From Ischnura elegans (Eukaryota; Arthropoda; Insecta; Odonata; Coenagrionidae): a stretch of DNA of 64,000 nucleotides. The stretch spans positions 110,503,111 through 110,567,110 of the forward strand of contig NC_060247.1 in NCBI RefSeq assembly GCF_921293095.1. The letters run 5' to 3'. The notes under the pieces are model-generated. The model did no database searches. It was given only the letters and a program-made list of their open reading frames with translations, and was not told the origin of the DNA. The stretch's first letter is position 1. The number at the start of each line of letters is the position of its first letter. Position numbers and translations under genes: made by a program. This document shows, in pieces, positions 1,389 through 60,918 of the stretch.

Positions 1389-1964
1389 CTGTTTTCCTGG
1401 TTATTTCGACTTTTGTTTTTGCTTCTCCTCCGCCAGGGTATGAAGTAAGTGAGAATTTAGAAGAATGCAACCGATTAGCTGGAGTAAGTATTGCTCGTAT
1501 AACAATTTCACATGTAAATGGAAATATCTGAAGCTTCTCACTAGGCAATAGAAAATGCCAGCTTCATTTAGATCCAAAATAATTATTTATGCTCTTTACT
1601 CGTATCTCTAATTTTAGTCTTTTCCTTTATGAAAGTTTCATTGATTTTTATGTTATCACTGTATGCAAACTCAGAATTACTGCCGAAACGTTTCCTAAAA
1701 TAATTAAAGCCTCTGGCATACTTAATTGATTTCTACGGTATCTTTCTGCAATCCATTAATAAACTACGGCAATGAACCATTATTAAATTTAAAAAAAAAA
1801 CATTAAAAATCAAGTAATTCCCTTCGACTGTCTTTAGCTCAAATTATTCATTAACTCCAGCAAATTGATAATTCAATCTGCCTCTCAATTTCTTGCTTAT
1901 TTCGACAAAACAAAATCTACACTACATCCCAAAACATATCCGATTTCTCGCATCGTGAGTACAG

Positions 1965-2220
1965 CAGGTTGTAGCTTATTTTTATTTTTTCTCGGATTTT
2001 CGATTTTTATCTCTTCATTTATGCTATGGGGTGCAGAATGGATATCCTAAAAAAATCGACTCGATTGTTTAACATTTAGTAGATTAGTTAACATTGAGCA
2101 TAAATGCAATAACATTCGATTTCTCCGATTTTAATAAATAACATCATTGTCAGGGGTAACGCATAGTTTCACAGACCTTTAGAGCCACATTTTTCTCCAC
2201 TTTAACGTCCAGTAAACAGT
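1965..2220 (+). repeat. MITE-like interspersed repeat, copy 1
   Basis: About 250 bp in intron 2 of gene A that reappears in reverse orientation at 51080-51350 in intron 2 of gene D. Shared landmarks are GGGGTGCAGAATGGATATCC, GAGCATAAATGCAATA and TAACATCATYGTYAGGGGTA. No coding potential seen. Class unknown. Confidence 0.6.
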
Positions 2221-3477
2221 TTTCCAGGAAAACCATACTTTTCCGCGAGTTACAGCCGCGGGTCACACCCCTAACGGCAAGCTGGTCGCTCGCAGGTCGC
2301 ATTCACGGTCAGCTGATAGGTTCATCGCCCCTCATTGCCTTACGCTCCACCACTCCCTCGCGCCTTCTCAAGCGAGAGTCGGCGGAAGAAGGGAGGAGTG
2401 ACTATAGAACTTTTTTTGTTCCTTAGAGCAAATCCGCTGGGTGATTGTGATTCAGCTTGCGCGATTGTTTGTTTAATTGTGCTTCAGTTTAATTTTTATG
2501 CATCAACCCATTTTCATCCTTCTAAATTTCCACACAAACCCTCAATTTTTGCCCAGCAAAGAGATTTTCGGGGGAGGTTGGGTTGTGTACATGTTACCTA
2601 TACTGAACCTTTGATTTCCATCCGTGTACATCCATAAATCATACATATCATTAAATCAGCTGTATATTTTGCTTCGCAAATAATTATGAAAGTTAAATTT
2701 CATTAAAACACATTTCCATTTACATGCTATATTTGTCTGACATATGTGAAAAAAGAGGGTAGTTTTTAGATTAAAATGTTGACGTGATAGATAAAAACTG
2801 GGGTCATTTTTTTATCCAGGGACCATAAATTGGTCAAAATCAAGTCGCAGATCCAAGTAAACAACCTTGCCGTTCCCCTGAGTATTTTATTGTTTGTACT
2901 GTTGAACTGGAATTTTTCAGGACCTCTTGGAGCCCGCAATCGACTGTTATCGAAATGAATTATCCGAGGAAATGATGAATGAAACAAGGCGATTGGTCGG
3001 ACAACCACTTGTGTACCATGCAAACATTTTTGCAGGTAAGGATAAATATCCTATCTCTTGTTTTCTTTTTTTAACCATGACCATGTTGAAGTTTAGATGC
3101 ACCTCCTGAGAGAGTATTCAAAAATTAAATTTACACAAATTTTCAAAAGAATTTTCCCTATCATCTACATTTACACCACAATACCATCCCACATATACGC
3201 CTAAAAAGGCGTGTGAAAAGGGATGTTAGGACGCCGTTTACATAAAAATCAAATGCTCTACGAAAATGCTATTAGCATTTATTAAAGTCCTTTATGCTTC
3301 GGAGGAAGTTGTGGGCAATACATCTTCATTGATCATTTGTTATGTTTTTCCACGACATATCCCCAAAGAAAGTTGACAAATGGATGCGATATAACAACAC
3401 ATACCATGCCTTTTATTAAATGTTATATAGTTTCATGCACCAAATTACTGTAACATCGTAACATTGCAACAAAAAAA

Positions 3478-3965: not shown

Positions 3966-5357
3966 CACCGTTTAAAGGCAAATTAATGATTCATTAAATT
4001 ATTATCACTATTATTTATTTTTTTCTTTTCCCTGATCTTAATTTTTTAATCATGACTAACGTCTTGGAGCATAGGCGGATTTAGAGGAGGGGATTGGATC
4101 ATGTCTGTTGAGCAGAATATGCAATTTTTACAGCTTTTTGCTCCAAAGGGTACCTCGGTGATGAAAAAAAGTTTTTATTCAATCATTCACCGTGTGCCGT
4201 TTCTCCGGAGATGAGGAAGACAATGAAATGCAGAGACTCCTTTTTAAGGACTTCCATTGAGGAAAGTAATTATTTGGTTGCTCCACGAGTTTTTAAATAT
4301 TTACAACAAATTTTCAAATTGTATCCACATGAACTAACCATTTTTTTTCTGCTGTGAACTAATATTTGATAATTCTCGCAGGAGGCATGACCAGATCTCA
4401 GCCTGTGTAAGACAAGGTGTTGAACTCGGGAAGGATATCTCGAACAAATCAAAAATCATGATTCCGTTTACCGGCCAGTTAATTGATACTACACTGCATA
4501 TCCTTTGTGACAATGAGGATGAAATGTTTCCTGGTAACTACGTATTTTGTATGAAGATGCGAATTTTCTTGTTTTTTTTTAAGAAAAATCTTCGAATTAT
4601 CAGTTATAAAATGTACTTCTCATTGCATGTTATATTGTTATCATTCTTAAAAAATTTTAATATCATATAAATTTATCTTTTACCTCAAACATTCTGCTGT
4701 CTTCTAATTTTCAGTGGTCACAAAAGAGGAGGCACTATGTTTTCGGAATGCCACAGATACGTGTGATCACCACTTAGATTTCATCCACAATATGGAAGTT
4801 GTTGCATTCTGTGATTCTGCGAATCCTGATACTGATCCTTTCACCCAGGAGTATATGTGTCGGTATGTCTGAAAGCATGTGTGGTAGTGCTATGGTTAAA
4901 TATGATTACCATTAATCGGTTATTAGAATTCCAGTCATTCTGCTGATTTTAATTGAATTCTGTATAACTTTCTACTCTTAGATTCCCTGATTGTTACTGG
5001 TTAAATAATATTGACTCGATAATTTATGGAATTCACAATGTATTTGCTGCAATTATATTTATATTATTCTTTATTCCACAAGATTTACTTGGAGGTCTGC
5101 CAGCGTCGGGCCTTGCCAAGACGCTGCCTCAAGTTACAATTCATTTAAAAACAATCTAACTGTTCTACATGTATCCAGTACTACAGATTTTTGAATGTTT
5201 ATTATTGTGTTTCTTTTAATTTTTAATTGTTCAATTCCAAAATTGAGTGATGAATGTATTATTCCTGTTGATGATATTACTATGGGGATGATGGTGACCA
5301 CGTCCTGTTTCCAGATAGTTTTTATTTGCCTTGCGAGGTCTTGATACTTTTGTTTTA

Positions 5358-5399
5358 TTATTACCATTATTATTACTATCATTATTATTATTATTTTTT
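5358..5399 (+). repeat. (ATT)n microsatellite
   Basis: Imperfect ATT/ATC triplet run in intron 5 of gene A. Confidence 0.8.
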
Positions 5400-5829
5400 G
5401 CATCTTAAAATAGGCAAGCCTGTTCAAGTCACCGTTGAAAATTGTATCAATCGCAAATAGACTGATGGTTTTCTGGTATAACCAGTATTGCACTAAGTCA
5501 CATCGCTTTTCCTCCATTTTTCTGTAATAAAACCTTCCCCTGTCATATACTCTACGATGTGATGCAAGGAAATTTAAAGTTATTCCAATGTAATAATATG
5601 CAAATGAATCCATTATTAGAATTATGGTTTATGCGAATACTTGACGATGTTTATAAATATATTTATGGAGTTGATCTAACTGATTTATAATTTTTTAAAC
5701 AGGAAACTAGCTGATTTTCTGGATTGTTCCAAGGAACTCATTGCATCATGCGCAGAAAATATAGTGAAAACTCTAAGCATATTTAAAACTAAATTGTTGA
5801 ATTCTGATGTCTGCGCTGCATACAACTGA

Positions 5830-6630: not shown

Positions 6631-6788
6631 TATCCGACGGGAAAACCATAGATCCTTCGCTAAGGGTTAAATAGCTAATTAACACAAGTCCCTCGTATTT
6701 GGATAGACTAAGGGATCAAGCCTCCGAAGGTTTTTAGCCTCCCCTCCATCCAGTCGACTCCTGCTCCAACGATTCTCATGTCTTCTAA

Positions 6789-7352: not shown

Positions 7353-7359
7353 TAAGACT

Positions 7360-7985
7360 TAGTACTTCCGACGAATTTGAGGCATTCCCAAAGATCGCTA
7401 TCCTCTTGGTAATATTTCTGATACAGCTTACATCATTATTACAAGTCCTCTCCCCGATATATTTGGCCTTCACTCTTTTGAGTCTTGTACTCTTTATTTG
7501 CACCACTATGCATGGGTCTTCTCTTCCTGACTTTCAGAATACTTCTCATAACTAACTACTAAATATCTAGTGTAGTATCCAGCGATTTCCGCGTATTTAA
7601 AATCTTAAACGCTCCGTTAATTTTTCACAATAGCCCCCTCTAGCTTTTTGTCAATATTATCCTACAGCCCACAAAATAATGAAATATAAACTTTCAGTAG
7701 TCAAAAAATGGTCATATTTTGACCGATTTAAAGATTATAAATTTTATCCCTCAATGACAATTTATCCAAATTGACAAGTCAAGAGAAAAAAAATTTAATT
7801 TAAAAAATAAGATTAAATTAAATTGATTATTTCTTAATATTTATCGGTCTTGTATCATTTTTGGAGCATCTAAGTCCATTTAAGCCTGAGTTTGGTCTAG
7901 TTCACTCAGGCGTGAAATTACAACTACCCATAAAACCTTGGTAGATGTATAAGAAAGCAAAGTTATGATGAAAACGAATTGAAGG
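7360..7985. other. Intergenic, nothing recognised
   Basis: AT-rich intergenic sequence. No splice-bounded ORF, RNA gene or clear terminal repeat seen. Confidence 0.4.
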
Positions 7986-9208: not shown

Positions 9209-9516
9209 TCTAAAATTGGTGTGCAATTACATTGCTTTTATGATATATATATTGTGAACCTTAGTTACCGTGTCTCCGTTTTCCATTCAAGGTGTTAGCC
9301 TATGAATTTTCAAACTATAAATTACAAACCATTAAGTGTAGCCTTATTAATTATTATAAGTATTCTATTACTTTCATGAAGGAATTCATCATTGCTACGT
9401 GGAAAATATTCATAGAAATGTTTGATTTCGTTAATTTCATCCTCATGTATTTGTCGCCCCAAGCATGGTCGCCGGATTTTTTCAGCTATTTGACAATATT
9501 TCCTGACGTATTGTTT

Positions 9517-19680: not shown

Positions 19681-22600
19681 ATGGCGTCAACGATTCAACT
19701 ATTTATATTCGGTGAGTAATCAGTGTTTTAAAAAGTTGCATGCGAATTTGGGATGCATATAATTTTAAAACTTTGCCAGATTTTTTATTATTGAGTCTCT
19801 CAAATCAGTTTTATGCGACTTCCACGACTTATTCTTTTCTTGGAATGCAAATAGGCTGATTATAGTGTAAAAACTACTTTTTTATTAAGAACATAGAGCT
19901 TTGCAACCACTCAGAGTTAATATTTTTATATCCAATATGCAATAGATAATTAAATACTGTCTACTCTATAATACTTATCGACACGTAACCTGCACAATCA
20001 CTCTACAATCGCCCACCGAATCAAATCCGCTCATCCAGAAGACCAACAATACACCTACGCTCAGCTTGTGGTAGGCAGAGCTCAACCGCTAACCGCCGAT
20101 GTTTGTAGAATAAAGTGTGAGTTTTTGTGGTCCGGCTACTGCCAGCTGCATGCATTCGTATTATTTGGCTCCCAGTTGAGCGGCTATGAATCGGTGGACG
20201 ATTTTTGGGCGCCTGAGCGGTGAAGGTATCGTCTTAGAAAGTTTAGAAATGTTAGTAGCGGAAACTTGAAACATGAATTCGTCAGGAAAGGGGGTCAAAA
20301 TTACGATTAGTTATCTTAAACCCGCGCAACTTTGAAGAATGTCGATTAACAACCTAAAATTTAATACCTATGCATTTCTCTCAGTTCTCAGAGAATCTGA
20401 AAGGCGATTTGCTAAATATATATGAATCAAATAGAGTTCTTATGATGCTCGTATATTCTTGTAGGTATTTTGTGCGACTGTTAGTATTATTTAACATTAT
20501 TATACAGAGGTAGATTCTGTCAATGAAATTATTTGTGAAATATATTCTATCTACTATTAAAACATCGTTTTTTGATCCTTGTTTCCACCAACTTTGTCAC
20601 GAGTGGCTTAAAAGGAAAACTGATTCCCGCATTATTTTCTTCGACTGATTACCTTGGGGAACAATTTTGAACACATTTTCTGTTGATTTCAATCTTTGAG
20701 ATACTTTAGGCTAAAAAGGGCAGGCTCATTTCGAAACTGTAGTTAGTTTTCTTCTAAGTTTTTTCGCTGCACCGTATGTGACTATGACCTATAGATATCA
20801 ACATAAATATCATCAATTGCAGCCCAAACATGGCGTCGACGAGACTACTTTTTATATTCGTCGAGTAATCAATGTTTTAAAAATGTTGCATGTGAACATG
20901 ATGCATAGAATTCTAAACCTTTGCCATATTTTTCAATATTAGTCTCTTAAATCATTGTTATGTGAATTCTGGGACATATTCTTTATAAATAATGCAAATG
21001 GGCTGGTTTAGGGCCAGAATTACTTTTTTGTGAAGAATATAGATAGCTCTTTCCAGCCACTGAGGTTTAATTTTTTCATATCCGAGATGCAATCGATAGT
21101 TAAAAAATGTCTACTCTATACTACATACATATGCTTAGAGATTTTAGAGATGTTAGTAGCGGAAATTTTAAACGTGCAATTCGTCTGGAAAGTGAGCCAA
21201 AATTGAACCGATAAAACGGGAATGATGCGTTATCCTAAAACAGCTTAACTTAGGAGAAAGGCGATGAACAACCCAAGATTAAATACTTAAGCATTGAACT
21301 CGTTCTAAGATTATATTGAAGACGATTTGATACCTATAAATGAATCAAAATTTCCCGGTAAAAATAGACGTTGATCCTTGCATAAATTTCCAACAAGCTC
21401 AAAATTTACAGGAAAGTTAGGAATACCACTTTTATGAAGTTCTGAAAAGTCCCCATCGATTCCGTGTGTGCAAAATATTTTTCTCAAGGTGAAAGGTCAC
21501 AAAAATGGGTGTTATGCATTTTTTGGCCAAACGGTTTGTTTAATTATAAAAATTGCTCAGACCAAAATTGTTGATCAGGAAATAATATGCAAAATTGTTA
21601 AAATACTTTTTTCTCTATGATATACCATTTCTGAGAAAAAGCCATTCGAAAGTTGACAGGAACTGTTCAATAATGTTCGGAGATCGCAAAAATATAGTCA
21701 AGCACATAACTGAGTACATTGGATCGAATTTCAGCTTAAGTAGCAAATGAGACGAATCGCAGCGAAATTCATCCCTCGCTTGTTGACTCCAGATCAAAAA
21801 GTGGTACGTGTAGCTGCTTGCCTGTACTTTAGGACACTGCTTCCTCTGCCATCCTACTCACCAGATATTGCACCTTGTAATTTCCTTTTGTTCCTCCGGA
21901 AGACAATGGTGGTGAAAAAAATGCTTAGGACACATTACAGAGGTGAAGAGAAAATCAAAGACAGCACTGTAAGGTATCGGAAACGACGAGAACCAAAGGT
22001 GTTTCGCGGAGTGGAAAATAAACTTGTTAATCAATGTATCAGTGCAAATGGAGAGTACTTCGAAGGTGACTTACGTTTGTTACACAAAAAGTTGAATTTT
22101 GAATTTTCTAAAAATTTTGGCCTGTTATTTTGGGATCCCCCCTCGTACATTTTACATTATTTTGGAACTTAGCTGCAGTTGCACTGGTCGATGCAGTTAT
22201 CATATGAGGGTGTTTGAAGGCAACGAGTACTCGCTATATTGTTTTATATATTGAGTTAGGTATAGAAATTAGATAAAAAAACAAACAAGATTAACTAGAT
22301 ATTTAGTAACGGATTTGATTTTCCACTCGATTTTAGTACGGAAGAGAGACTCACTCGTCAAGTTTTGCATATTTCTTCTATGAGTATCTAATACTAACTG
22401 TAAAAAATATCACTTGTACCACTTGGCTCCTCACTCCCTCATATTTCAAAACAGAAAAAGAAGTTTTAAATATTTTTTTTATTCCTCTGAGTCTTTGGGG
22501 GGAATCTATTATATCAATACCCCCATAGTTACGCCACTGGCCCTCACTATCTATCCTTTTGATCTTCACCATTCTCCCACACCACCACACTTCGAAAGAT

Positions 22601-42200: not shown

Positions 42201-43282
42201 ATTTATGTTTAACTTTTCCGTTTGCTGAAATAGTTGTTTGCATTAATACAAGTAATCAAAATAAAGTTTTAACCTAATGTCTAAATTTAGTTTGAACCAT
42301 AGTAAAAATTACGAACAGATAACCGACCCGTAAATTGACCGCGAACCAGAACCATCGCATCCTGTTCATCAAACGCAAATTTTCAAATGAACGCGAAGTC
42401 AAAATGAATGCGAGATCCCAAATAAACAGTAAGAGGAAACGAACAGCCTCCAAAAAAAGAACGCCCTCCGAGAAATGAATACCCTGATAAAACGAACAGC
42501 TAAAACGAATCTAATAACATTTTGAAAACCCGTTCGATCCGTTCAGCAGCTAAACTGTTCATATTCGTGGACCTTGGATGGTCTGCATCGTAACTGCCAT
42601 CTGTTGTACCACGCACTTGCTGGAAAAAGCTGCAGTTCAAAATACCTCTTCGTGAGCATGCCTTCTGGACCGAATTCGCAACAATTTTGCAGCGTAGACT
42701 TGAACAGTGAACAGGGAGTTTTAGAGAACTGTTCATTTTATAACCAGTTCATTTCAGTGAGCAGTTCGTTTTCGCAGTTCGATTCCTTTTGACCCATCTC
42801 TACCTCTTGGTGAGCATAAGCTACCTGTTGGACCGAATACGTCGCACGTGTGCACTGCCGTCATGAACAGTGAACTCGGAGTTTTTTATTACTGCTCATT
42901 TTATAACCGGTTCATTTCAGTGAACAGTTCGTTTTTGCAGTTCGGTTCTTTTTTACCCATCTCTACAGTCAATGTGTTATTCAGTGAAATTAAAAAATAC
43001 CGCTATCCTTGGAAAATGAAAATTTACACGTGGGTTCAGCAGTATACGCAGTGACGTCAATTGGTTTTGATGGAATCTTATCATTTCAGGAAGTACCTCG
43101 ATTTCATGGAGTGCGCAGAAGCAAAGTTTGACAAGTGTTCAGAGGAGATGAAAAAAGCTGTGACCAGGATCATATCGAAATGGAAACAAGAAACCTCTTG
43201 TTCCAATTATCTCGACAATATTCCCAAAAACTACTATTTCAATGGACACGATGTATTGAGTGCCGAATGTGATCAATTGTAA
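33270..43282 (+). CDS. Gene C: divergent secreted Cys-rich paralogue
   Basis: Exons 33270-33300, 36094-36200, 38297-38412, 39594-39745, 40918-41062 and 43090-43282; intron phases 1, 0, 2, 1, 2 as in B and D; 744 bp, 247 residues. The signal peptide MAHSSHLIFIG continues with TILVIPTLILA. Family landmarks are FFECRG, LMLECTSKQY, KSKHICR, FQCLREAVDDF, RALCDNDAELLSG, ECQSRLG, VAICDY, FICQ, DFMECAEAKFDKC and TSC. It lacks the two extra Cys before KHxCR found in A, B and D, and the LDFI(H/S)NM stretch of exon 5. It has a longer C-terminus ending ECDQL. Sequons include two NET sites and NVS. Poly(A) signal AATAAA at 43403-43408. Gene structure is well supported; the 27-kDa haemolymph glycoprotein-like family is inferred. 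Confidence 0.78.
34583..34764 (-). CDS. Candidate small Cys-rich ORF, antisense in intron 1 of gene C
   Basis: An ATG at 34764 opens a frame with Cys at residues 3, 7, 16, 24, 26, 33 and 46 (MECKITCNYGG, then WYCAED, RQCNCVGE, NVCPAE). After residue 46 the frame loses Cys and runs to 34543. A second frame just downstream reads CPECVAEC followed by a stop at 34583, so a frameshift or small intron may separate the two parts. No signal peptide is visible. It could be a broken or partly seen exon of another secreted peptide gene, or chance. I cannot assign a family. Confidence 0.25.
36487..37935 (+). mobile_element. Interspersed element in intron 2 of gene C
   Basis: Starts CTAGCTGACCCGAAAACG and ends near GAATCGGTCCAGCCGTTGCA then TTATATATTAGAGATAGAGA, a start-and-end combination common in arthropod interspersed repeats. 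An inverted piece at 38880-38985 shares CCATGAATTCCA and CCCGAGCAACRCCGGGT. Class not determined. Confidence 0.55.
38480..38760 (+). repeat. Interspersed repeat in intron 3 of gene C
   Basis: Same family as 22865-23120 and 49255-49515 (AAATGGGTTTACAAAA, CGAGTTTCACGGGAA). Confidence 0.5.
39860..40035 (+). mobile_element. RTE-type LINE C-terminal remnant in intron 4 of gene C
   Basis: Frameshifted translation gives ADRSRAKAFEM, YRSMMKIRRNDRAGNEEV and KVGDNRSLL, the same segment as residues near AFEMWCYRRMMKIKW in the LINE at 9517-11545. Confidence 0.6.
41890..42970. repeat. GAACAG/CTGTTC-rich repeat with hAT-like end
   Basis: Many CTGTTC/GAACAG and GTTCATTT words in both senses. A 100-bp unit (AACAGTGAAC...GGAGTTTT, ACCRGTTCATTTCAGTGA, then CCCATCTCTAC) is present twice, at 42695-42805 and 42865-42968. 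The end TAGAGATGGG, read inward on the - strand, is typical of hAT non-autonomous elements. Lies in intron 5 of gene C. Confidence 0.5.
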
Positions 43283-46058: not shown

Positions 46059-49000
46059 ATGGCGTCGACGAAACTACTAGTTATAATCGGTGAGTAACCA
46101 ATGTTTTAAAAATGTTGCATGCGAAGTTGGCATTAATAGAATTCAACATCTTTGCGAGATTTTTGATAATTGAGTCTCTCAGATCAGTGTTATGTGACTT
46201 CTACGACTTATTCCTTATTACGATTGCAAATAGGCTGGTTTTAGTGCCAGAATTACTTTTTTGTGAAGAATACAGCTTTTTCCAGCCACTGAGGTTTAAT
46301 TTTTTATGGGTTGCGATGGATAAATTAAAAAGGTCTACTCTATGCCTAAACGTCTAATACATGCATATGCTTTGAAATTTTGGAGATGTTATTAGCGGAA
46401 ATTTAAGCATGCAGTACGTCAGGAAACCAATCTAAAATTGAACCGATAGAACGGAAATGATTTGTTATCCTAAAGCCGCGCAACTTCGGAGAGTATTCAA
46501 CATCGTTCTCAGAGTATCTTGAAGACGGTTTGATACTTATATGAATCAAATAGTGTGCTAGTGATAATCGTTTACTTTTTTAGGTATTTTGTACGACTGT
46601 TAGTAAAATTTAGTGTTATTATACAGACAGATTCTGTCAGTGAAGTTCTTTGTGAAATATCTTCCATCGAATAATCTCTTATCGTGCCCTTTTCCACCAT
46701 CTGTATCGCAAGTGACACTAGGAGAAATCTCACCACGAGAATGTCGCCAATAAATCTTTTATGGTTACTTTTATTCATTTACATTTTTACCGCGTGAGGA
46801 ACTCGCTTGTCTGAAAATTTGTCAATTATCAAACCAATGTCATGTGAAAATTCGTTACGATATTCTTGTTAGTGTTACTGACCTCTTAAATAAACTGGGA
46901 TAGGAATCACTGTCAGTTCATAGACTGAAAAATAGACTATACCTATTATCTAAGCCCAAGAGCAGTGCATTTTCGGACGAAGTCAGCCACATCGGAAATC
47001 CTCTCGCTGGTGATTGACCACCCTCTGCCAAACACCCTAGAGGTTGCTCGCAGGGTATTATGCAGATGTAGATCATATAATTTATAGCTTGCAATTAATC
47101 CATGGGGAGTTGCGTTCTCTAGTTTATTAAGGACTTGACAACTGATCTGGGTCCCGGTCTGAGTGGCTCCTGAGGTCAACTCGGAAACTCACGAAGCGGG
47201 AGAGTGACCCCCAAATTCCTAAATTTTGTTATAACCCACGCCTATATCGAGTGAGCTCTACCATTTCTTATCCAAATCAACCTTCGGATTGAAGCATTGA
47301 TTATTTGAGTTGAGCAAATACCGGAAAAAGTTTAACGGATTTTTTTATCTATTGGGATGACGTTTTTACTTAAATGTGAACATCATAAATTATGAAGAAG
47401 TACATTGTTGGTAAAAACCACCTGATAATAAATAATCATCTCAGCAGTGGATTTCCGTTCCAATTACACAAATTAATCATCGTCCTGATCTAATTTTACG
47501 GATTCTTTTTATTTATAGAGATGACGTTTTAACTTGAATGTGACCATCCTGGGTTATTAAGGAGTACATTGTGGATACTAGGGTAAGTCAATTATTATGC
47601 GCAAAATAGTCATTAAATTTTATGTAAAATTCATAGCCCGAACTAATTTTCAGACGATGAGCCAGTTCGCCAATAGTTTCTCGTCTGTATAAGAGAATCA
47701 TTTCACGTGAAAGCCCAATGCTTTCTTCATTTGTGGCGGTATACATTTGTCTGGCTCCTTCATTGTGCGACCATTTTGAAATATTTCAACCCGTTTATAG
47801 ACACTCCGTTGTGGCAAAAAACTGTCCTTGTACTGTAACTACTAAACTCCTTCTACCGATTCGATCGATGGATTTTTCTTCTTCATAGGAAAAATCCACT
47901 AGGATCGGTAGAACATTAATTGCTTGTGCTTGGTATCGCTAATAGTAGGGCCCCCTTCGCTTCTATAGCGTTGGGGTGTTTTTCCCTCGTCCCGTCCCTT
48001 CCGTTCCTATCCTTTCCCAGAGGCGTCGGCGGGCTCCCATCGCGGCGTCGCGTCGCCTCTATCCTTTTTCCTTCCTCTCCAGCCCCTCCCCGGGTGATTG
48101 GGCGTATAAGCCACTGGCTTGGTTCCCGGCCCCGGTGCGTTGGATCCTTCGAAGGGTTCACCTAGAACCCTCAAACTCTTTGTCCTTGTACTGTACCGAA
48201 ATTCTTCGATGAATTTTGGCCCCTGATTGGCCTTCCGACCACAAAAATCGATCGTTGAACGTTGCTCAACCTTCGTGAAAATAGAAAGCGGAACAACCAT
48301 GATTACCAGCGCGACTGCGATAACAAAACTAACCTAGCAGCTTGAAACATGCAAAGACATAACAACGAATAAATTAAGCATGCGTCATCAATGTGAAACG
48401 ATATTACTACCAAAATTAACAAATACATAACTAAATATCGGGTAATAATTGACTGGCCCTCCTAAAATGACCTTGTAGTAATAGATCAAGTGAGTAGTGG
48501 ACTTCCTTTCCAATTCCACAACGAATAATCGTCCTTGATTGATTAATATCTTATTAAACCCGTTTGAATTTGCGTCCTTCATATAGAGATACCCAAAATC
48601 AACACTCGTTAATCCTAACATCGGTTTTGACGCTGCGATCCAATCAATTATCCTATCGGCAAATCTTTTTGAAGCTACATAATGCCTCTGCTTTACAACC
48701 TTCATCCCCTGTTTTATGTATATCATCCCTGGGGTACTTTTACCCTTATTCCATCCCACCTGTCGGCCGACTATAAATTTACATTTTACATCATTTTGGC
48801 ACTTAACAGCAGATGCAGTTATTATATGTCGAAGCTAAACGAAGGTGATGAATATTATTTTTTATTTCGCAGAGGCTTTAAGGAGGGATCTATCCTCCTA
48901 ATCCCCGTGTAGTTACGCCACTGGCCGAAACTATCGATTCTCTTGATCTTCACCATTCTTCTATACCACCAAATTTCGAAAGCTTCCAACCTTAATCTCT

Positions 49001-52000
49001 CCATTGATAGATGTACCATTAATTCAAATTTTATTCTCCCTTTACAGGAATTTTTCTAACAGTTACAACGGTCACAGTACTTTTTCTAACATTAACAAAG
49101 TTCGCTGCACATCCGCCAGCCCACCTACTAACTGAGAGCTTCCAGGAATGCCGGAGAAGAAGTGATGTGAGTTATGGCTCAGATTCAAATTATGTGTCAT
49201 TTTTATTACGGTAGAGTGTCGACTTGATCATTACATGATACGGCCAAGGTATACTCATTACTGACACCTTGTTCTTCTTAATGCCGTACACTATTCAGTG
49301 CGATGGCAGCTCAGGCGTCACTCTCTTAGCCGTTGAAATAGGTCCCCATTACCCCATTCAGTCTAATCACGAATATTGCAAAAAAGGATTCTCAAGTCGG
49401 TGGTTGACTACAGGAATCTGTAGTCAATCACCGCGCATGGGTTTACAAAAGTCACTCGCGTTTACTCACGTCACTTACGAACAAATTGATTCGAGTTTCA
49501 GAAGGGAATAAGGTATGATAGGGTGGTTTCCTATTGTTTTTTACTGCCTAAATCGAAAGTTTATTACTCCTGGAGTACGCATTTTACGTTTTTAGATTTT
49601 TAAATGACGATTTCTATTTTTCGCGGTTAAATTAAAAGTGAAAATTTCAAAGCGCGCGAAAACACGACGGCTACGTATGAATTCTGGGAAAAGCCCGTAT
49701 GACATCATTCTGGTTCCCGCTGTCGCCGTGTGAGGAACCGTGGGGAGAGGATGTGTGCTCCGCTGCGATTCAGGGTGCTAGTAGGTAGCAGAGTACCCTG
49801 CTATCAGGTACCATTTGCCTTAGATAAGGATTATTAATACCTTATCAAACGAAGGAAACTTTCCAACTATAGGCAGTTTTAATGGGTGATTATTACGAGA
49901 TGTTTCCCTGAGCTCGGTGCCTCATGCATACATTGGTAATCTCGGACGATGTAAAACTCCTATCTACTCATATAGAAACTAGGTCCCTGTGACGTCACGT
50001 GGAGTGGCATCGCATGGGCGCCAATCTGGCCTTTTTCGAATGCGGATAAAATTGACCATTAACATTCGTCTAAACTGTCATTTCTAAAACCAAATAATTT
50101 GTATATTATGAATACACTAATGGTGGATAGTGAATAGCAACCCATGCCTTTCGTTTCCTTTGATGAAGGAAACTACCCTATTAACGGTTTACACAGATAT
50201 TTACATTTAAAAAGATATCCTATCAATTACCTAAAAGCCTACTACCATTCTACGCAGTCCCCTTGCTTCCAATCTTTGATGTTTTGTCCCCGTGAACATT
50301 TTCTCCTTCCTATTGGGCGCCTTCATTCAACTCCCCCTTCTATAATCACGCTGAAAAATAATGACACATAATTTTTACCCTCTTATAGTGAGTGCAAAAT
50401 GTGCTATTTTCCTCTTCTCTTCCCCGGAAGGTGATCAAGGCCTGCTCTACGCACAACCTAAGTGTTTGAAACGCTCTTGTTCCATGAAAATTTGAGAAAC
50501 CATCTTGAGTTGCTTTCAGTCGCTTCCTGTCTTTTCATTGATGTTTTATTCGACCAACTTCCACTCCATACAATAAAGCCTTTTCGACATGCTCGAATAT
50601 TATATAACATTTCTTATAAAATCAGACAATTATTGCGCACGCATCTTATCTAAAATAGATCATAATTTGGAATTCTAAATTTGATATCACATACACATTC
50701 AAGATACATATTTTACCAGTCTAGCTGTTCTTATTCAGACAGCCCTTGACAAGTACGGGTAAACGTTGAAACCTAGTTGAACGAATGAAATAGTGTGGAA
50801 AAGTTACAGCTGTTTTTATCTTATTACATTGAATTTTCACAATGATCAACTCGTCAACAATCGATATAATAATATCGAAAATTGGCGATTGTGTATTGAT
50901 TTCAGCGATTTGGTGCAGATGCTAAACTATCCACACTCTCAAGAAATACTTCCGAACGATTTCTAGATTGAAGTTTACCGCGCTTAAATTAATGAACGCA
51001 ATTCGCAAAATTTTCCCTTTTAAGTACTTATAATTTAATGATAAGCGATTTTTTATTATGTATTACCCCTTAACAGCACCCGCCCGCGAAGATACTGCCA
51101 GTGCAGTAAAAATGGAGTGAATTTTGGCCCTTAAGGGCTGTAAAGGTGTGCGTTACCCCTAACGATGATGTTATTTTAAAAAATCGGGAAAATTAAATGC
51201 TATTGCATTTATGCTCTTTGAGCAACCTCTGAACGTTAAAAATCGAGCTGAAATTTTTAGGATATCCATTCTGCACCCCACAGCATATTTTAAGAGGTAG
51301 AAATCAAAAATCCGAGAAAAAATAATAAATAAGCAACGCCCCACAGAGCACGATTGCGGTTTTTATTGCCATGCTTAAATATTTTTAGTTTTCCTAAATA
51401 TACATTAAATTGTTAGGGTATTTTATCGCATTTGGATAACTTATAATATTAAAAGCACCTTAAATATTTATTATTTTTGATTTATAGCATAAAAATAAAA
51501 CATATTACTATGCAAATTTCTTCATAAATACCTTGAATAGTTTTTCTTAAGGATTTGCAGAGGCAAATGTTCTTGGTCGAGGAAAAGGTACAGAAAAAGT
51601 ATACCAGAGTGTGCTACCAGTGATCCGAAAGGCAATAATCGCGCTATTTCGAATTTTCGAAAAATGCGGCAAAATTCCCGGAAAGCGTGTGACCAGGGGT
51701 TAACTTACTTTAATAATTTGAATTTCTTTCTATGCAAAAAATGCATACTGCTGGGGATACTGTTGCCTTAGTTCATATTAATTGGAATATTTTCACCATC
51801 TCAGGTGATTCGAAAAGTGCCGGTACGATTGAACTGCGGCTAAATTTATTTCCAAAAAAAGTGATGTAGACTTTTAACTTAAATACGCCGTGATATATAT
51901 ATGCATGTTGATTTCTTAAGGACTTTCACTGGTCAGCCATTTTGTATTTGCACCTGCTTTCATTCCCTCTTTCGATGACTTCTTCAAGGAATATTTAAAT

Positions 52001-55000
52001 TAAAGTCTTTTGCAATATATTCATGAAAATGGGATCGGTATGAATTTTTAATAGTTATATAAAAAACGTATAATTTCGGTCGTTAAAATTCGTCGCTCTA
52101 AAATAAATAACAAAGCCACACCATGTAGAGAAATTTCAATGCATGAATATTGTCAAATTTGAATTTTGAAATTTTTGTTTCATATGCATAATAAGTACGC
52201 TTTGCGAACAAACAGTCAAAAATACTATAATCATGAAATGAGTCAATTTTAAAAAAATTATGTAGCTGAAAAATTTTTCAGGATCTTTCAGAGCCTGTAG
52301 TACGATGCATCTCCAATGAATTATCACCGGACAAGTGGAACGAAACAGCAAGACTTTACAGCACTACTACTGCATGTATCGATTGCAAACACGTATGCAG
52401 GTGAGCAGTAATACCTCATTACTTACTGGAGCATTGCTGAATTGAGATTAATTGTGCAACTGCATGAAATGTTTAAGTTAATGTCTGATTGATTCATCTA
52501 CCCTCAGAGGACTTTTGACTTGAATTGCTCTTTATTCAACACTTTGCTTGCCATGGACGTAATATTACGTCCTGCTAATCCTTCTGAGTATTGCCATGGA
52601 CGTAATGTTACGTCTTTCCATTTAATTGGCTTTGTATGCGTGAAGCCGTAATATTTCGCCGGTGGTACTTTTCCAGTTTACTGCTTAGGGGTTCTGTTTT
52701 TTCAAAAATCAACTCTCGATGGAAAAAGAGTTCACTTTATGTGTTGAGGACGAAAAGTCGTCTGTATCTACCGACATCCTCATCTTAGGCCACTTAGTGT
52801 GAAAATTCTTTGGGTCAATGGGCCGTTCGTTGAGGGTGCATTGACCCTTTTTGTCATCCAGGATTTATAATGCTTTGCTTGGAACAATGCTTTTTTATGA
52901 TTTCCATGCTTTAAATAGTTCAAATTGAGCGTAATAACAAATTATTATGCATGTTATGGCGGTACATCATATGTTGTAACTTTTTTATTTTTCATAAACA
53001 GTAGGTTTTCATTGTTAAATTATATATTTAAAAATTAGCAATAAATGTTATTTAGTTCATTTATAAAGAAGAGCAAAGTCCATTTTTATTGAAATGTACA
53101 TTGATATATATATATTTTTGATGCTAATGTTTTAAAAAATGTGCGAATATAGTAAAAAAGGCTGGATTTTTCAGTAGGGCTTTAAATTTAGCAGCCGGCA
53201 CTCAAAGTGTTAACCAAACCCAGGCGAGGACACAATCCGGGCCCTATTTCCCTGGGCCTTGGCTCTTTCACATGGCTAATTGCTTTCAGTCATTCAGCAC
53301 AGATTTAGATATTTCAATGGTTGACAGATGAGTTTCTCAAATCGACGATTGAGCATATGTCACTTTCATCTCCTGATGCCTAACTTCTTTTGACATCAGA
53401 TTAAGCCGCTCAAGTCATGGTTTTTTACCTAACTCTTTTTAGAAAAAAGAAATCACTTGTACCCCTTGGCTTCTCACCCACTCATATGTTCTTTACAATT
53501 TGTGAGAAAACGTATATTTTTGTGTGATTGATATAGAATATTTTATTGTGTTGTTGTCCAAATATTTTTTACTCGATAAGCCTAGTTACCATCTCTTTAG
53601 AATTGATATAGCAGACCCGGTATATTTTGTCAAAAGAATATTTTTCAAAGTGGAACATTGTATGGATTGTATTCTTTCCTCTTATAGATTTTTCCTGAAG
53701 AATAATATTAATTTCTCAAATTGACGATTGAGCATATGTCACTTTTTTCTTCTGATGCATAACTTCCATTGACATCAAATTGAGTTGTTCAAGTCATGGT
53801 TGAGCCTACTGCCGCTAACATTGCTCTGTAAGCCGGGATAATTGACACAGTTGTATAAAAAAAGAGATAGTGAGCATATATAATTAAAACCACGTTAAAA
53901 TGTATATGAAACACAATAAATAACAAGTAAAATACACTGAGAGGTTGATGATTACTTCATACGATGGTAAAATTTTTATTAATGACCAGATGATAATTTC
54001 AGTCATTTCAAGAAAGAGAGTTCTGTTATTTAAAGACCAAGACTTAGGTTTGTTTACCATTTTTTTGTTGTTATCAAAACTTTCTATTTACGCATTAGTT
54101 TGTTACGATTTGTGTGAAAAAATGTATTTTTCTATTATTGACATAGAAATTTGATTGCGTTGTAGTGCAACATCAACATTTTCTACTTGCTAAGCCTTGC
54201 TATCATTTCTCTAAAACCGAATATTTATTTTTGGTATCCCTTATTTGCTATATTTGACAAAAGCATATTTTTCATAGTAGAGCATTGTATGTATTCTCTA
54301 TTCTTTCCTAATACAGGTTTTTCCCACAGAATAATATATATTCATTCAAAATTTATGCTTCACGACCCCTTATTATATATATATATTTTTTTTAGATCAC
54401 GAGATGTGGGTCAATTGTAAATATTATTTATTTTTTCCAAACTTTGCCAACGTTTCGGACATTATATTTGTCCATCCTCAGGGCTATAAAAATGATAATT
54501 TATGATACAAAAGTAGTTAAATACAGACAATTTTACAGTTGTTATACATTAAAATACATGGAAATACATATTCAAAATTTACCTTTAAGTCTGATGTTGT
54601 TTTTATTTATTTATTTACAATTTGGTTGCTTGGATTTCTTTCTTTGTTGGTTATGTCATTTATTAAATTATGATAAATTTTGCTAAGGTAAGTAATGTCT
54701 GTTCTATTATTGCAGCTTTTTTTATTTCTGGATATGTGGTACATTTCTTTGAATAATCTTTTTGATAAAACTGGTTCTGTATCTAAAATTTTGGCCTCTT
54801 CGAAACGAAATGAGTGACTGTTTGTAATTGCATGATCTGCTAATGCACAAATTTGAATTTTGGTCTTAATTGATGTTTTATGTTGTGAGATCCTATTTTT
54901 TAAATATTGACATGTTTGGCCAATATAATTTTTATCACAGTCTTTACATGGAATTGAATAAATGATATTGCTTCTAAGCTGCATAGGGGTATTTGACTTA

Positions 55001-58000
55001 AGTTTAGAATATATGAGTTTATGTTGGGTTTTATAGTTTTTATGTGCTATTTTAAAATTTGTTTTTTTGAATACTTTGGTAATTTGTTCTGATAATCCAT
55101 TTATATAAATCATTCCTCGATATTGGTCTGTATTTGTGTTTGATATATTTGTTGTAGTTATTAAATTTTAAAATAGCACATAAAAACTATAAAACCCAAC
55201 ATAAACTCATATATTCTAAACTTAAGTCAAATACCCCTATGCAGCTTAGAAGCAATATCATTTATTCAATTCCATGTAAAGACTGTGATAAAAATTATAT
55301 TGGCCAAACATGTCAATATTTAAAAAATAGGATCTCACAACATAAAACATCAATTAAGACCAAAATTCAAATTTGTGCATTAGCAGATCATGCAATTACA
55401 AACAGTCACTCATTTCGTTTCGAAGAGGCCAAAATTTTAGATACAGAACCAGTTTTATCAAAAAGATTATTCAAAGAAATGTACCACATATCCAGAAATA
55501 AAAAAAGCTGCAATAATAGAACAGACATTACTTACCTTAGCAAAATTTATCATAATTTAATAAATGACATAACCAACAAAGAAAGAAATCCAAGCAACCA
55601 AATTGTAAATAAATAAATAAAAACAACATCAGACTTAAAGGTAAATTTTGAATATGTATTTCCATGTATTTTAATGTATAACAACTGTAAAATTGTCTGT
55701 ATTTAACTACTTTTGTATCATAAATTATCATTTTTATAGCCCTGAGGATGGACAAATATAATGTCCGAAACGTTGGCAAAGTTTGGAAAAAATAAATAAT
55801 ATTTACAATTGACCCACATCTCGTGATCTAAAAAAAATATATATATATTCATTCATTCATGACATTACATGCACCAGTTCAACTTGTCTCTTTCAGCATT
55901 TGGATTTCATGGTATAACAGTATTATAACGTAAATAAATGCTTATACCATGCTTGAATCATTCTTCCAGGAGACGAGAGCAGATATGGGAGTGCGTGAGA
56001 CGAGGAGTCGCAAGTATGAAGGATTTATCCCATAAATCGAAGATAATGGTTCCATCCATCGTTAAGTTGGCTGAGAGAATCATAAATACATTCTGTGATT
56101 ATGAAAAGGAATTGTTCCTTGGTAATTTTTGGTGCCGAAATTTGGAAATCACTGTGAAGACAACTTCCTATTTGAAGAGAATTTTTAGAAACAATCCATT
56201 ATATTTTAAGCACATTTTCTCATGTATGGGAGAAAAAGGCGCTATAGTAGTCGGATTGCCTCCATATGTATCTATCTTTCCTCACTTCCACATAAATTTA
56301 CAGAGCACTATGCCATGCAACTTGGTTTTAATGGCGGTTCTAGGTTTGGCTTGGAATGCCATTTCCAAAAATATATGACTATGCCCAGGTCTATAATCCA
56401 CGACCATGGTCTGACGCTTTGTTTGATTAGAGATTATGAATTCGTTTTGCGCTTTTCTCGAATTTTGCGGAATAACTTCAATAATTTTGATTGTGGCGTT
56501 AGGTATAAGATTGCAGAAGAAGTCTCGAATCATAAACTTGACTAACAGTCACCTAAGGTCACTCGAAGTCACACAATTTATGAAGTTTAAAGAAATTTTC
56601 AAAATAACTTCAATGAATCTGATCTATACAAGAGAAAATGTGCTGTATCTCGCTCACAGCAGTGAGTGCTGGTATTTTTTTTAATCTATCATCAACATTT
56701 CAGGCCTAACCGACGAAGACATGAGTTGCCTCAAGAATAGCTGGGAGAATTGTAACAAAAATTTAGACTTCATTAGTAACATGGATGTTCTTGCCTTCTG
56801 CGATGTTGAAGGTCCTGATGTTGCTAATCTGTATACGATGAAATACGTGTGCATGTGAGTATATGCTAATAACATTGATTGTGACCGAACGACTCGCGCT
56901 CCTGATATCTCTTGTGTGATTGAATTATGACCGGAATACAACTATTTTTGCCATTCCCCACCGAATGACTCGTCGATCACCCAAGAAGAAGTCTGTCGTG
57001 AATGGCGAAGGTGGTGGCCGATTTTGGTCTTGAATGGCATAAGTAGTGACCGACGATTGACTATTAACGATTGGCTTATTTAAGACTAATTAAGATTTAT
57101 TACTAATTTATTGGTTAACTAAGATTTATTAACTAATTTATTTTATTATCTACTTATAACGAGTACGTTAAAATCACGGCCCTATTTTCAGTGTTTGTGT
57201 TCTATAATGGTGTAAAATTTGAAATTGTCGCATTTTCCAGTACGTGGGAGCTTTGGTTAAATCAAGTAAACTTTTCAGTAAACGCAAAAAAATAACACGG
57301 TCTTTCTTTTAATGGCTGCGTAGTTTTTATCATCGGGAGAGCGATTACATTTTAATTCTTACAATAATTGAGTCATTTAGACTCTGTATTGTGTGTATAA
57401 AACCTCAAATACAAGATAATTTTTAAATCCATTCTGAGAGACAGCTCTAGCGAACATTCCAATGGCGGTGGGAATGATTGACCACCATTGGCGACTATTT
57501 TCCGCAATTTTTCCAGAAATGGATATCTCATCCAATTTCCCATCCCTTTTTCCGTCGCTGAAACCTTCGCTGACACCTTTCTCTAGCCAATCAGAAGGAA
57601 CATGCGGCAGCTAAAATTAATTGTAACGAAACACTTACCCTTCAATTCAATGACAGTTATAAATACGGAAAATGATGGAATAAGCGATGAAAAAAGGGAC
57701 GGTTGGAATGAATGACTGAGAAAATGATTGGTCGAGTGTTCATTTTTTTGCTAGCTGAAAAGCTGAGACTGAGGGATGGGGAAAATTATCACGTAAATCA
57801 GGCTTTAAGCGGCGTCCATTAATTACGTGTGAAAAGCCGAAGAATAAGGTTTTTTGGCACTTTTGGGACAGCTCCCCTTTCCCCAGCGTATCAGTTAGAG
57901 ATCGTGAGATTTAGTTCCACTTCCTCCCTCTAATTTCACGTGAGATAGTTCAAAATGCGTATTTTCAGTGTAAATACGGCAATATATGTCTCATTGCTTT

Positions 58001-60918
58001 GGTTTTTGTAAAAAAATAACTTGTTTAACTATTTTTATTTAATATTTGCTAAGAATAGTATTTATGACAAATTTTACCGAGTTTCTTGCGGCTATAATAC
58101 AGTCTCTTAGTATAAACAAATCTACATCATGGTCATTTTTTCAATCAATAAATTCGATTTTACTGCGATAAAAGAAATTTGACTACTTTTGGAGGCACTT
58201 TGCAGAGATCTACTCTTAGATATAATAATATATGATACTATAATTAATATATAAGTAAAATTTTAGCATAAATTAATACTGGCTAATCAAAACTCATGCG
58301 ATAAGAAAACAAATTTTACCCCCTTAAAGCTCTCATCAAGCTTTCTAATGATCACTGCACGACCACTGAAATCAACATGATGGAATTACGAAAACTATGC
58401 GCCGCGCGTGGTACCATCTGAAGTCAGTCCTAGACCACTCATATGGCTGATTACATGTATTCAGAATTTGCGCAAAATTCAAATACGAGAATGGTGCTTC
58501 TATACGATTAGCTTAAACTCTTTGCATAAAAGTAACAGAAGCAGGCGTTATATAGTGGAATGACATTCTAAGTTTTAAAAATAACACAAAGGTGGCAATA
58601 TTCCACAGGTTTATTTTCCGTACAACGCGTTTCGACCGTTAGGTCATTATCAAGTACAATGATGAATGGTTGGTTTTGGGGTTGTATTTATATAGAACGG
58701 ACGTGTGACAGGTGGAAGGGGAAGTTGGGGAAGGGTATTTGTCATTGGGTGGAGCGCTTCGGGAATGGTATGGCCAGGAGTGGGGAATGTCCAAAAAAAT
58801 AAACCCGTGGAATATTGCCATCTTTGTGTTATTTTTAAAAATTAAACTCTTTGCGTTGGATCTATAGAAGAAAAAAGTTTAATTATTTTTATTAATGATT
58901 TTTAGATCGCAATTTTACGTTGTCTCTTGTGGAAAGAATATTCTGTGATACCTGCCTCTGATGTGGTAGACAATCGTATTATAAATCAAAAATTCAAGCT
59001 CAATGCGAGATACTTTAGCTTAAAAAACAGTTTAAAAGTTGTACGTCTCTAAACGTAAAGCAAAATTTGTGGTCTGACCAAAGATGGGCGGAAGCTCAAG
59101 TGGGGAGGGGCAATGGACTAGCCGGTAGACAGAAAACTAGAGGAGGTCCGGGGGGTCCGGACCCCACTCCTCTACCCCTCTATGAGAGCAGACAGAATTT
59201 CTTTCCTTCGTAAAAATATTGAAAAATTATGAATTTTCAAAAGATTTATCTGATAAATTGACGAAGAGGTTCTTCGATTATTAAAAGTGATAAAATTACT
59301 TTCAAAGCCTCTATTTAGAAACGTGTTTTAACAAAAATGTTTTCCACCATGTTTTTGGATCCACCCCTCCGAATTGGTTCCACCACTAGGAACTCCAAAT
59401 TCCTGGCAACACCACTGGGGAGGGAGTATCATCAAACCAATAAATTGAGTTTAATCATTAACACGGTCATCACATAAGTTTTTTTACTTAGCTGGATACC
59501 ATTGATATTAGTGAATTTGTTTGCATTTCACTCAGAAAATACTTGCTTTTTTCATCGTTCGTGCTTGATTGGGCGGTAGTTACGATAATGCTTGTGGATT
59601 TAATTTTTAACCTTCCTTTTCCTTAACGTAGTTAGAGCGCTTCGTAAAAAGCAACAAGCATTTGATGAAACTATGGTCTCATATTCATTGAAAGGCCTAT
59701 GTTCCAATGATTCAAAGAAAAAGGGATTCCCAAGAGCCGTTTTTGATATATTTTACAGTAAAATTAGGACAATTTAATTGCGGCTCTTATAAAGAAATAC
59801 GGGTTTTTCGAGCCATGAAAGCCGTTCGTAGCAAGAAGTTGTTGGGACGGCACTCATTTGAAGGAATATTTTGTGAAAAATCCAAACGTGTACGGGAAAG
59901 TAGAGATTCAGTATAAAATATGAAAGATATTTCCAAAAAACTACCTGAAACTAGATCGTCGCCGGAATCTCTGAAACCAACATCGCAGAACGAAAACCAC
60001 AACACTGACTTCGCCTAAATTACGCAAATATAGGTAGTTTTCCTGCTTCGACATACGACTAGCATATCTTATGCTTATAAATACATTCATTTGTAATTTA
60101 CTTCTTCTATTGTGAATATTTATTCAAGGTATATCTTCAATTTCTCAGTGAGCAAAGGTTCGAAGCAGTGTTGAAAGTAGTCAAGTAGATTACTGTCATT
60201 ACTTGCCGATTTTAAATTCATTTTTGACGATTACATTGTGCTGGTGCAAAATTACGCTTCATTTTAGTTCTATGTTTCATTTTGATTATCATTTTTTGCA
60301 ACTCATTCACGTAAATCATAAGTATTCCGAGTAATTCACTTGACCGCTTAACGTCGTTGCCGCTCCAACAGCCTTAGGCAATGGATGTTACAGATCTCGG
60401 ACAGGATAATTGGGGGTGCTCGATTTCCGACAATCATGAGTTTGGCCTCAGAATCAAAATGATGAAATACAATTGCTTCAAAGCACATGAGTGGCGTGAC
60501 TCTATTTTTTTCTCAAATAACCTGTACTAACTAACACCTAGTGCCATGAGCCTCGGTATCATTGTCTAGGAAATTAAAGAACCTAGATAGCGTAGTGGTC
60601 TCCGCAATGGCCCGGAAAGCCTACGGTCCGTGGTTCGATTCCCGGTCCTGGGGATTTTTTTCTCATGGTAATTCTTGTATAAACTGTACTAATTCTAGTG
60701 TATTTCCTCATATCCATGAATTTAATGTTTTATTATTATGAATTTGTGAGAATTGCGAATATTAAAATGCATTTAATAACTCAAATATTTGTTTTAACAG
60801 GAAATCGGTCGATTATTTTGATTGTTCCATTAGAAGTGCTTCAGCATGTTCAATTAGATTGGTCACTACTTTCTCGGCATTAATGACGACAGTAGCAACC
60901 TCTGCTTCCTGTGCTTAA
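46059..60918 (+). CDS. Gene D: secreted Cys-rich protein, close paralogue of gene B
   Basis: Exons 46059-46089, 49048-49166, 52282-52400, 55970-56121, 56704-56854 and 60801-60918; intron phases 1, 0, 2, 1, 2; 690 bp, 229 residues. Starts MASTKLLVIIG. Exon 2 is 27 bp longer than in B because TTTCTAACA(G)TTAACA-type sequence is repeated in tandem, lengthening the hydrophobic core of the signal peptide. Family landmarks are ECRRRSD, VRCISNE, ACIDCKHVCR, WECVRRG, NTFCDYEKELFLG, SCLKNSWENC, LAFCD, YVCM, DCSIRS, ACSIR and a terminal SCA. It ends 13 residues earlier than B after the last Cys. Introns hold several insertions absent from B, which explains its 15-kb length against 9 kb. Best poly(A) candidate is AATAAA at 61048-61053; the signal used by B is mutated here. 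Confidence 0.8.
47838..48180 (-). mobile_element. GC-rich SINE-like retroposon, copy 3, perfect target duplication
   Basis: A 343-bp element between perfect 15-bp direct repeats TGTCCTTGTACTGTA (47823-47837 and 48181-48195). The hairpin end has GGATTTTTC / GAAAAATCC where copy 2 has AGATTTTTC / GAAAATCT. Lies in intron 1 of gene D and is absent from intron 1 of B. Confidence 0.7.
49255..49515 (+). repeat. Interspersed repeat in intron 2 of gene D
   Basis: Counterpart of 22865-23120 in gene B at the same intron position. Confidence 0.55.
50265..50560 (-). mobile_element. RTE-type LINE remnant in intron 2 of gene D
   Basis: Colinear with the fragment at 23400-23700 in gene B; frames more broken. 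Confidence 0.55.
51080..51350 (-). repeat. MITE-like interspersed repeat, copy 2
   Basis: Reverse-orientation copy of 1965-2220 (GGATATCCATTCTGCACCCC, TATTGCATTTATGCTC-like, TTACCCCTAACGATGATGTT). Confidence 0.6.
52537..53213. mobile_element. piggyBac-like MITE
   Basis: Ends CAACACTTTGCTTGCC (52537) and GGCACTCAAAGTGTTAA (to 53213) are inverted repeats of about 15 bp, with TTAA at the right and TTCA at the left. Internal repeats of CCATGGACGTAATRTTACGTC follow the left end. The paralogous intron 3 of gene B lacks the insert. Confidence 0.5.
53320..54340. repeat. Diverged internal duplication in intron 3 of gene D
   Basis: GACGATTGAGCATATGTCAC occurs at 53343 and 53723, and the stretch TTTGTGAGAAAACGTATATT...CATATTTTTCAAAGTGGAAC (53500-53660) recurs in altered form at 54108-54280. 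Unclassified. Confidence 0.45.
54452..54481 (-). ncRNA. Hammerhead-like motif, left Penelope arm
   Basis: CTGAGGAT, stem GGACA/TGTCC with a 7-nt loop, GAAAC, read on the - strand. Confidence 0.4.
54607..55113 (-). CDS. Penelope-like element GIY-YIG endonuclease domain (left copy)
   Basis: 168 codons. YSIPCKDCDKNYIGQT fits the GIY-YIG start of the endonuclease carried at the C-terminus of Penelope-like retroelements; the CxxC before YIG is typical of these elements. Then LKNRISQHK (the conserved Arg), ALADHAITNSHSF (the H-x(n)-H region), and a conserved Glu in FEEAKILDTEP. The upstream reverse transcriptase is missing, so this is a 5'-truncated copy. The frame ends at a normal-looking stop. 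Confidence 0.85.
   Translation of the reverse strand: MIYINGLSEQITKVFKKTNFKIAHKNYKTQHKLIYSKLKSNTPMQLRSNIIYSIPCKDCDKNYIGQTCQYLKNRISQHKTSIKTKIQICALADHAITNSHSFRFEEAKILDTEPVLSKRLFKEMYHISRNKKSCNNRTDITYLSKIYHNLINDITNKERNPSNQIVNK
55239..55616 (+). CDS. Penelope-like element GIY-YIG endonuclease domain (right copy)
   Basis: Identical over 125 residues to the left copy, on the opposite strand. Further 5' truncated: homology starts at 55163, corresponding to KIAHKNYKTQ in the left copy. No substitutions are visible, so the pair is recent or kept alike by gene conversion. Confidence 0.85.
   Translation: MQLRSNIIYSIPCKDCDKNYIGQTCQYLKNRISQHKTSIKTKIQICALADHAITNSHSFRFEEAKILDTEPVLSKRLFKEMYHISRNKKSCNNRTDITYLSKIYHNLINDITNKERNPSNQIVNK
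55742..55771 (+). ncRNA. Hammerhead-like motif, right Penelope arm
   Basis: Same sequence as the left arm, on the + strand. AAAC...GTTT downstream could form a short stem III. Confidence 0.4.
56150..56420 (+). mobile_element. SINE family 1 copy in intron 4 of gene D
   Basis: Colinear with the copy at 25270-25540 in gene B (GGAATGCCATTTCCAAAA, then ATGACTATGCCCAGGTCTAT). Confidence 0.6.
58526..58841 (-). mobile_element. Foldback retroelement with 13-bp target duplication and hammerhead-like motif
   Basis: Direct repeats TTAAACTCTTTGC at 58513-58525 and 58842-58854. Inside, inverted arms of about 42 bp (AAAAATAACACAAAGGTGGC near 58577 with GCCATCTTTGTGTTATTTTT near 58818). On the - strand at 58652-58629: TTGATAAT, stem GACC/GGTC with a 4-nt loop, GAAAC. 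Resembles a terminal fragment of a Penelope-like element. Lies in intron 5 of gene D. Confidence 0.6.
60531..60680 (+). mobile_element. tRNA-derived SINE (family 2) just before exon 6 of gene D
   Basis: A-box TAGCGTAGTGGTC (60588-60600) and B-box GGTTCGATTCC (60632-60642) at tRNA-like spacing, followed by a T-run. Flanked by AACCTGTACTAA (60519-60530) and AAACTGTACTAA (60681-60692). The same site in gene B (near 28575) is empty. The insert ends 120 bp before the exon 6 acceptor. Confidence 0.8.

Follow-up and report, generated by a model that had tools for sequence, protein, structure and literature searches.

The 27-kDa haemolymph glycoproteins of Manduca, Galleria and Bombyx, cysteine (Cys)-rich proteins with a signal-like N-terminus, belong to the DUF1397 family (Pfam PF07165). 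The parts of the literature available to us describe a DUF1397 protein in Manduca haemolymph that is produced by the fat body, another that marks an oenocytoid-like cluster in Bombyx, and, in virus-infected Drosophila and Anopheles, a rise of 1.7–2.1-fold (PMC8914287). The Galleria 27-kDa haemolymph protein, whose function is unknown, rises with fungal challenge (PMC4224417). Proteomes of the peritrophic matrix also list DUF1397 proteins, both in Hermetia and in Aedes, the latter with an Anopheles ortholog (PMC8035744, PMC5865745), and further members occur among centipede venom proteins (PMC5869384), including those recruited into scutigeromorph venom (PMC6878950). Here we analyse a 64,000-nucleotide stretch of Ischnura elegans chromosome 2 (positions 110503111–110567110; hereafter the window, within which positions have at most five digits) that holds four Cys-rich genes, A to D. 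These genes are neighbouring copies in a tandem array of about 60 copies over about 1.26 Mb, and their intron phases and Cys positions indicate that the array consists of distant DUF1397 homologues that are not filed under PF07165. For the array, the homology and the secretion of its products taken jointly, we estimate a probability of roughly 70%.

The extent of the array emerged from searches of the whole genome (1.72 Gb, 110 contigs; the part of the description of assembly ioIscEleg1.1 available to us gives 110 scaffolds and 148.00 Mb for chromosome 2; PMC9975421). Within the window, three exon-4 peptides (tblastn) retrieved four well-matched plus-strand copies, with E-values of 5e-7 to 4e-15 among themselves; this agrees with the four same-strand members noted in a preliminary description of this DNA. 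The cluster of four that it proposed was far too small, however. Genome-wide searches with three protein queries gave 126 matches at E ≤ 10 for protein D, 112 for a Z-type copy and, with 150 of its 169 candidates scored, 148 for a copy at 109.84 Mb. The matches listed for D all lie on chromosome 2 at 109.81–110.95 Mb (1.14 Mb); those listed for the Z-type copy all lie on the same chromosome, and those listed for the 109.84-Mb copy do so with one exception, on contig C10 (E 0.77). Merged by hand, the exon-4 matches define 63 loci, a lower bound for candidate genes that excludes two matches, the one on C10 and an ambiguous one at 111000490, and that, conversely, may include weak single matches due to chance. 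Sixty of them fall between 109746879 and 111005362 (1.26 Mb) on both strands (36 plus, 24 minus) with a median spacing of 18 kb, supported by all three queries in 40 cases, by two in 16 and by one in 4; the other three form small outlying groups on chromosome 2, at 119.72 and 121.44–121.48 Mb. The orientation of the array flips near 110.13 Mb, with mostly minus-strand copies below and mostly plus-strand copies above, as if two arms diverged from a single point. Among the open-licence PubMed Central papers listed, titles and abstract openings yielded no report of a DUF1397 array in Odonata, and the array genes may well be annotated already.

The structures of B, C and D follow one shared plan. 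Spliced by hand, B, C and D have complete frames from ATG to stop, GT/AG at all junctions, and intron phases of 1, 0, 2, 1 and 2, and they encode proteins of 230, 247 and 229 amino acids with 15, 13 and 14 Cys, respectively, the range given in the preliminary description. Their N-termini, read as hydrophobic and signal-like, are split by intron 1, likewise as described. Exon 4, identified by matches between copies as well as by splicing, measures 152 bp in all four window genes, as had been claimed, and in 14 of 14 array copies from which it was cut out. Gene B, on the plus strand like the others, has its ATG and the first half of the signal-like peptide in exon 1 (19681..19711), followed by exons 2 (22664..22755), 3 (24638..24756), 4 (25085..25236) and 5 (25640..25790) and by exon 6 with the stop codon (28698..28845). 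A second copy of the exon-1 region of B lies at 20800–21257; it is 79% identical to the exon-1 region of D and has TC at the expected position of the donor GT. The six exons of D occupy 46059..46089, 49048..49166, 52282..52400, 55970..56121, 56704..56854 and, with the stop, 60801..60918. Because exons lie in separate short open reading frames (ORFs), no window gene appears as a single long ORF, a point on which the earlier observation was correct.

Gene C comprises exons at 33270..33300, 36094..36200, 38297..38412, 39594..39745 and 40918..41062, and a sixth with an extended tail and the stop at 43090..43282. The loss of a Cys pair and the gain of a tail, both reported earlier for this gene, are evident on splicing and alignment: Tyr and Ser replace both Cys of the exon-3 CxxC pair, and the C-terminus is longer than in the relative at 110290087–110296746. 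Since that relative retains both Cys and ends shorter, the loss in C looks derived.

Over a larger stretch that includes the window, we find 15 copies within 302,601 bases (110284200–110586800): ten with exons 2–6, two with exons 3–6, one with exons 4–6, one with exons 2–4, and one that has exon 2 alone, where the stretch ends. Copy F is the sole minus-strand member of the 15. Seven further single-exon matches, mostly on the minus strand, stand isolated in the same stretch and are probably relics. Exon edges outside the window were chosen by a script that requires the expected phase, so the constancy of phases there is partly by construction; B, C and D had been spliced by hand beforehand, and the check from ATG to stop covers these three genes.

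What, then, ties the array to DUF1397? The preliminary description had guessed at this family from the pattern of the genes, and the guess stands as to distant homology while failing as to Pfam membership. Scanning the I. elegans genome with PF07165 (seven candidates scored) gave matches above the curated cut-off of 25.7 bits at one gene only, on chromosome 1, where the match covers four exons (29793454–29797817). This canonical gene scores 200 bits against PF07165 when its exons 3–6 (29793454–29797919) are spliced; a probable exon 2 ends near 29786158, and exon 1 was not found. The only other match in the genome scan, at E 4.27, falls at 110179630, where an array copy has its exon 4. The canonical gene shares the exon 3–6 plan of the array, and introns 2–5 have phases 0, 2, 1 and 2 in both, with the canonical exon 2 being probable only. 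Furthermore, of the 11 Cys in canonical exons 3–6, 7 in B, 8 in C and 7 in D have counterparts at identical offsets from the exon edges. Across 11 array copies, each matches 6–8 of these 11 offsets, and among 5000 within-exon shuffles per copy none equalled the observed match for ten copies and one did for the eleventh. It is these shared intron phases and Cys offsets that carry the case for distant homology.

Profile comparisons are more equivocal. Among ten array proteins, one, the copy at 110290087–110296746, aligns colinearly with PF07165 over profile positions 36–207 of 207 (E 0.0051, 16.6 bits, below the cut-off), one, a partial protein from the copy at 110.18 Mb (110179200–110182100), aligns in part (E 0.017), and the other eight, window genes included, do not align. 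By themselves these two matches prove little, because unrelated families reach similar E-values. A profile built from 13 array proteins placed the canonical gene second of 4931 scored sequences, at 13.3 bits, the others being its shuffles. Several of these results weigh against the homology. A comparison with PF07165, which the preliminary description had proposed as a check, matched none of the four window proteins (B, C, D and the tail of A), nor four of six further array proteins, the best score being 16.6 bits; Flagellar_rod (E 0.0047, copy F) and vATP-synt_E (E 0.0081, the 109.84-Mb copy) scored about as well; one shuffle of the canonical gene exceeded the gene itself on the array profile (13.9 versus 13.3 bits); and hhalign gave 5% probability for the array profile against the canonical single sequence, and 0.6%, in the wrong register, in global mode. 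A sequence search of the PDB returned no solved relative for C or for the canonical gene.

Taken alone, the missing window matches, the two sub-threshold alignments no better than those of unrelated families, and the weak hhalign result would fit an independent Cys-rich secreted family, unrelated to DUF1397, whose Cys spacing converged. Four shared intron phases together with matching Cys offsets at the exon edges are hard to obtain by convergence, and so is the profile match of one copy, which is colinear and full-length; we regard such an origin as very improbable.

On the reading as distant homologues, the array both resembles and departs from the described family. Proteins B to D are likewise Cys-rich with a signal-like N-terminus and are of comparable size (229–247 amino acids, an estimated 26–28 kDa), and at least one NxS/T site is present in each of the 13 sequences listed. 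In contrast, the array falls below the Pfam cut-off; the canonical gene has no equivalent of Cys columns 32, 35 and 128, nor the array of one Cys in canonical exon 4; and there are about 60 copies as against one canonical gene above the cut-off. The canonical gene also ends in a hydrophobic tail (29797703–29797919) that may be a membrane-anchor signal and that appears to be missing from the spliced array copies.

The array has diverged quickly around a fixed Cys frame. Between B and D, 4407 non-coding positions can be aligned, so the two are copies of one duplicated block. They share 61% protein identity, with non-synonymous divergence (dN) of 0.252, synonymous divergence (dS) of 0.369 and a ratio of 0.68 (bootstrap 0.46–1.02). 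In the group of B, D and F, amino-acid change proceeds about as fast as intron drift while the Cys stay fixed. Across 11 copies, 10 of the 13 Cys columns in exons 3–6 are conserved throughout and 12 in at least 10 copies. Five pairs (B–D, D–F, B–F, F–F2 and D–F2) show dN at 0.76–1.13 of non-coding divergence, and between B and D the exons carry a slightly higher share of differences than the introns (157 of 693 versus 922 of 4831 aligned bases). In A- and Z-type pairs, dN/dS is 0.25–0.55.

The earlier suggestion that rapid divergence reflects selection is therefore borne out for the divergence, with a B–D ratio of 0.68 and dN close to intron divergence, and not for positive selection. No pair with a sound alignment has dN/dS above 1, and the codon-model mean is about 0.42, both of which count against our best reading of the array. 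The only ratio above 1 (1.94; 1.10–3.91) belongs to a pair outside the window, 110404712/110432241, and we do not accept it as positive selection, since misalignment affects it. Exon 5 of this pair is equal in length but seems to be offset by indels that compensate each other (55 of 154 mismatches), exons 3 and 6 are unequal in length, and exons 2 and 4, counted by themselves, differ at 16 of 187 non-synonymous sites versus 607 of 11537 non-coding ones; a low Fisher value for the pair was discarded, as it includes the shifted exon 5.

Could the same figures mean that much of the array is decaying, with the group of B, D and F evolving near neutrality under low constraint and the window genes in the course of turning into pseudogenes? 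The five ratios of 0.76–1.13 and the slight excess of exon over intron differences point that way, as do the clearly broken copies, 3 of the 15: gene A, whose frame is broken, the copy at 110364390 (stop in exon 2) and that at 110463901 (stop in exon 3), the last with no exons 5–6 found in the 110284200–110586800 stretch. One further copy has lost Cys. Yet in B, C and D the frames and splice sites are intact and almost every core Cys is present, the same holds for F and F2 across exons 2–6, and by our own arithmetic the probability that drift at 61% B–D identity would have kept all 14 Cys of D is about 0.001. With dN/dS of 0.25–0.55 in the A- and Z-type pairs added, general decay seems unlikely.

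Gene A is the clearest case of damage within the window. Its likely exon 1 lies upstream of the window, at −1180..−1150, and exons 2 (1389..1483), 3 (2921..3035), 4 (4382..4533), 5 (4715..4862) and 6, with the stop (5703..5829), follow on the plus strand, assigned by splicing, with splice signals and frame for exon 2, length comparison for exon 3 and matches between copies for exon 4. Exon 3 is 115 bp long, whereas in the two nearest A-type copies it is 116 bp; its length modulo 3 is 2 in 12 of 13 copies measured, A being the sole exception. The phase after exon 3 is consequently 1, not 2, and the spliced frame is lost, so that the five shared intron phases claimed earlier for all four genes hold for B, C and D and not for A. 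Splicing A with the shared phases is ruled out by the length of exon 3, and keeping the frame in another way would call for the weak donor gtacca (score 2 on a simple ad hoc scale). Because exons 4–6 are open in the expected frame and the protein has changed little (dN/dS of 0.26 and 0.25 against other A copies), the break is either of recent date, still polymorphic, or an artefact of the assembly.

The gaps between the window genes hold reverse-transcriptase ORFs. Those between A and B (PF00078) lie at 7983–8888, 9494–11470 and 14734–15111, the one at 9494 being open for 659 amino acids. At 54607–55616, in intron 3 of D, two near-identical ORFs stand in inverted orientation; the minus-strand ORF, which was scanned, has a GIY-YIG domain (7.4e-6). 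We take this pair to resemble the paired ends of a Penelope-like retroelement. Together these ORFs explain part of the intron length. On the minus strand at 31626–31736 there is also a weak, stop-containing match to A-type exon 6 (49% identity, E 0.003), probably a relic copy.

Our best reading of these sequences is that the array encodes divergent, DUF1397-like, secreted and disulfide-bonded proteins under birth-and-death evolution. The N-terminal peptide would be cleaved upon secretion, the Cys of exons 2–6 would build a disulfide scaffold, and copies may be N-glycosylated at their NxS/T sites, giving soluble binding proteins that would circulate in the haemolymph or line the gut. Copies would be gained by block duplication and lost through a frameshift or stop codon, while, between the invariant Cys, the surface would change by drift or under pressure to differ. 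Most likely the proteins would act in humoral defence or in some other extracellular binding task that profits from variety. Given the published occurrences of DUF1397 proteins, we favour a secreted haemolymph or gut binding protein with a defence role, with modest confidence; the argument for defence comes from the DUF1397 proteins of other insects, which counts against it, and taken by itself the role is possible with the odds somewhat against it.

Many copies and fast change fit reproductive or salivary proteins too. Members of the same family could instead work in the gut lining, in reproduction or in saliva, in an array grown for dosage, sexual or dietary reasons, and to this we give a little less than an even chance. 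The DUF1397 proteins of the Hermetia and Aedes peritrophic matrices, with the Anopheles ortholog (PMC8035744, PMC5865745), and the recruitment into scutigeromorph venom (PMC6878950) are consistent with such jobs; the members described in most detail, in the literature as far as available here, are nevertheless haemolymph proteins.

Returning to the secreted, DUF1397-like reading, its furthest extension would be a diversifying repertoire of about 60 genes on one disulfide scaffold, descended from a DUF1397-like ancestor by birth and death and serving, in variable form, for humoral recognition or as effectors, a system missed by current family models; we put this forward as a doubtful idea. Whatever its role, this is a large gene family missed by the domain model, given that the PF07165 scan passes its cut-off at one gene only. 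The array also offers a target for data on tissues, infection and populations. For DUF1397, described in the available literature as insect-blood proteins of unknown function, it is a natural test case of their role, and its roughly 60 diverged copies with a fixed Cys frame show which residues matter and which vary.

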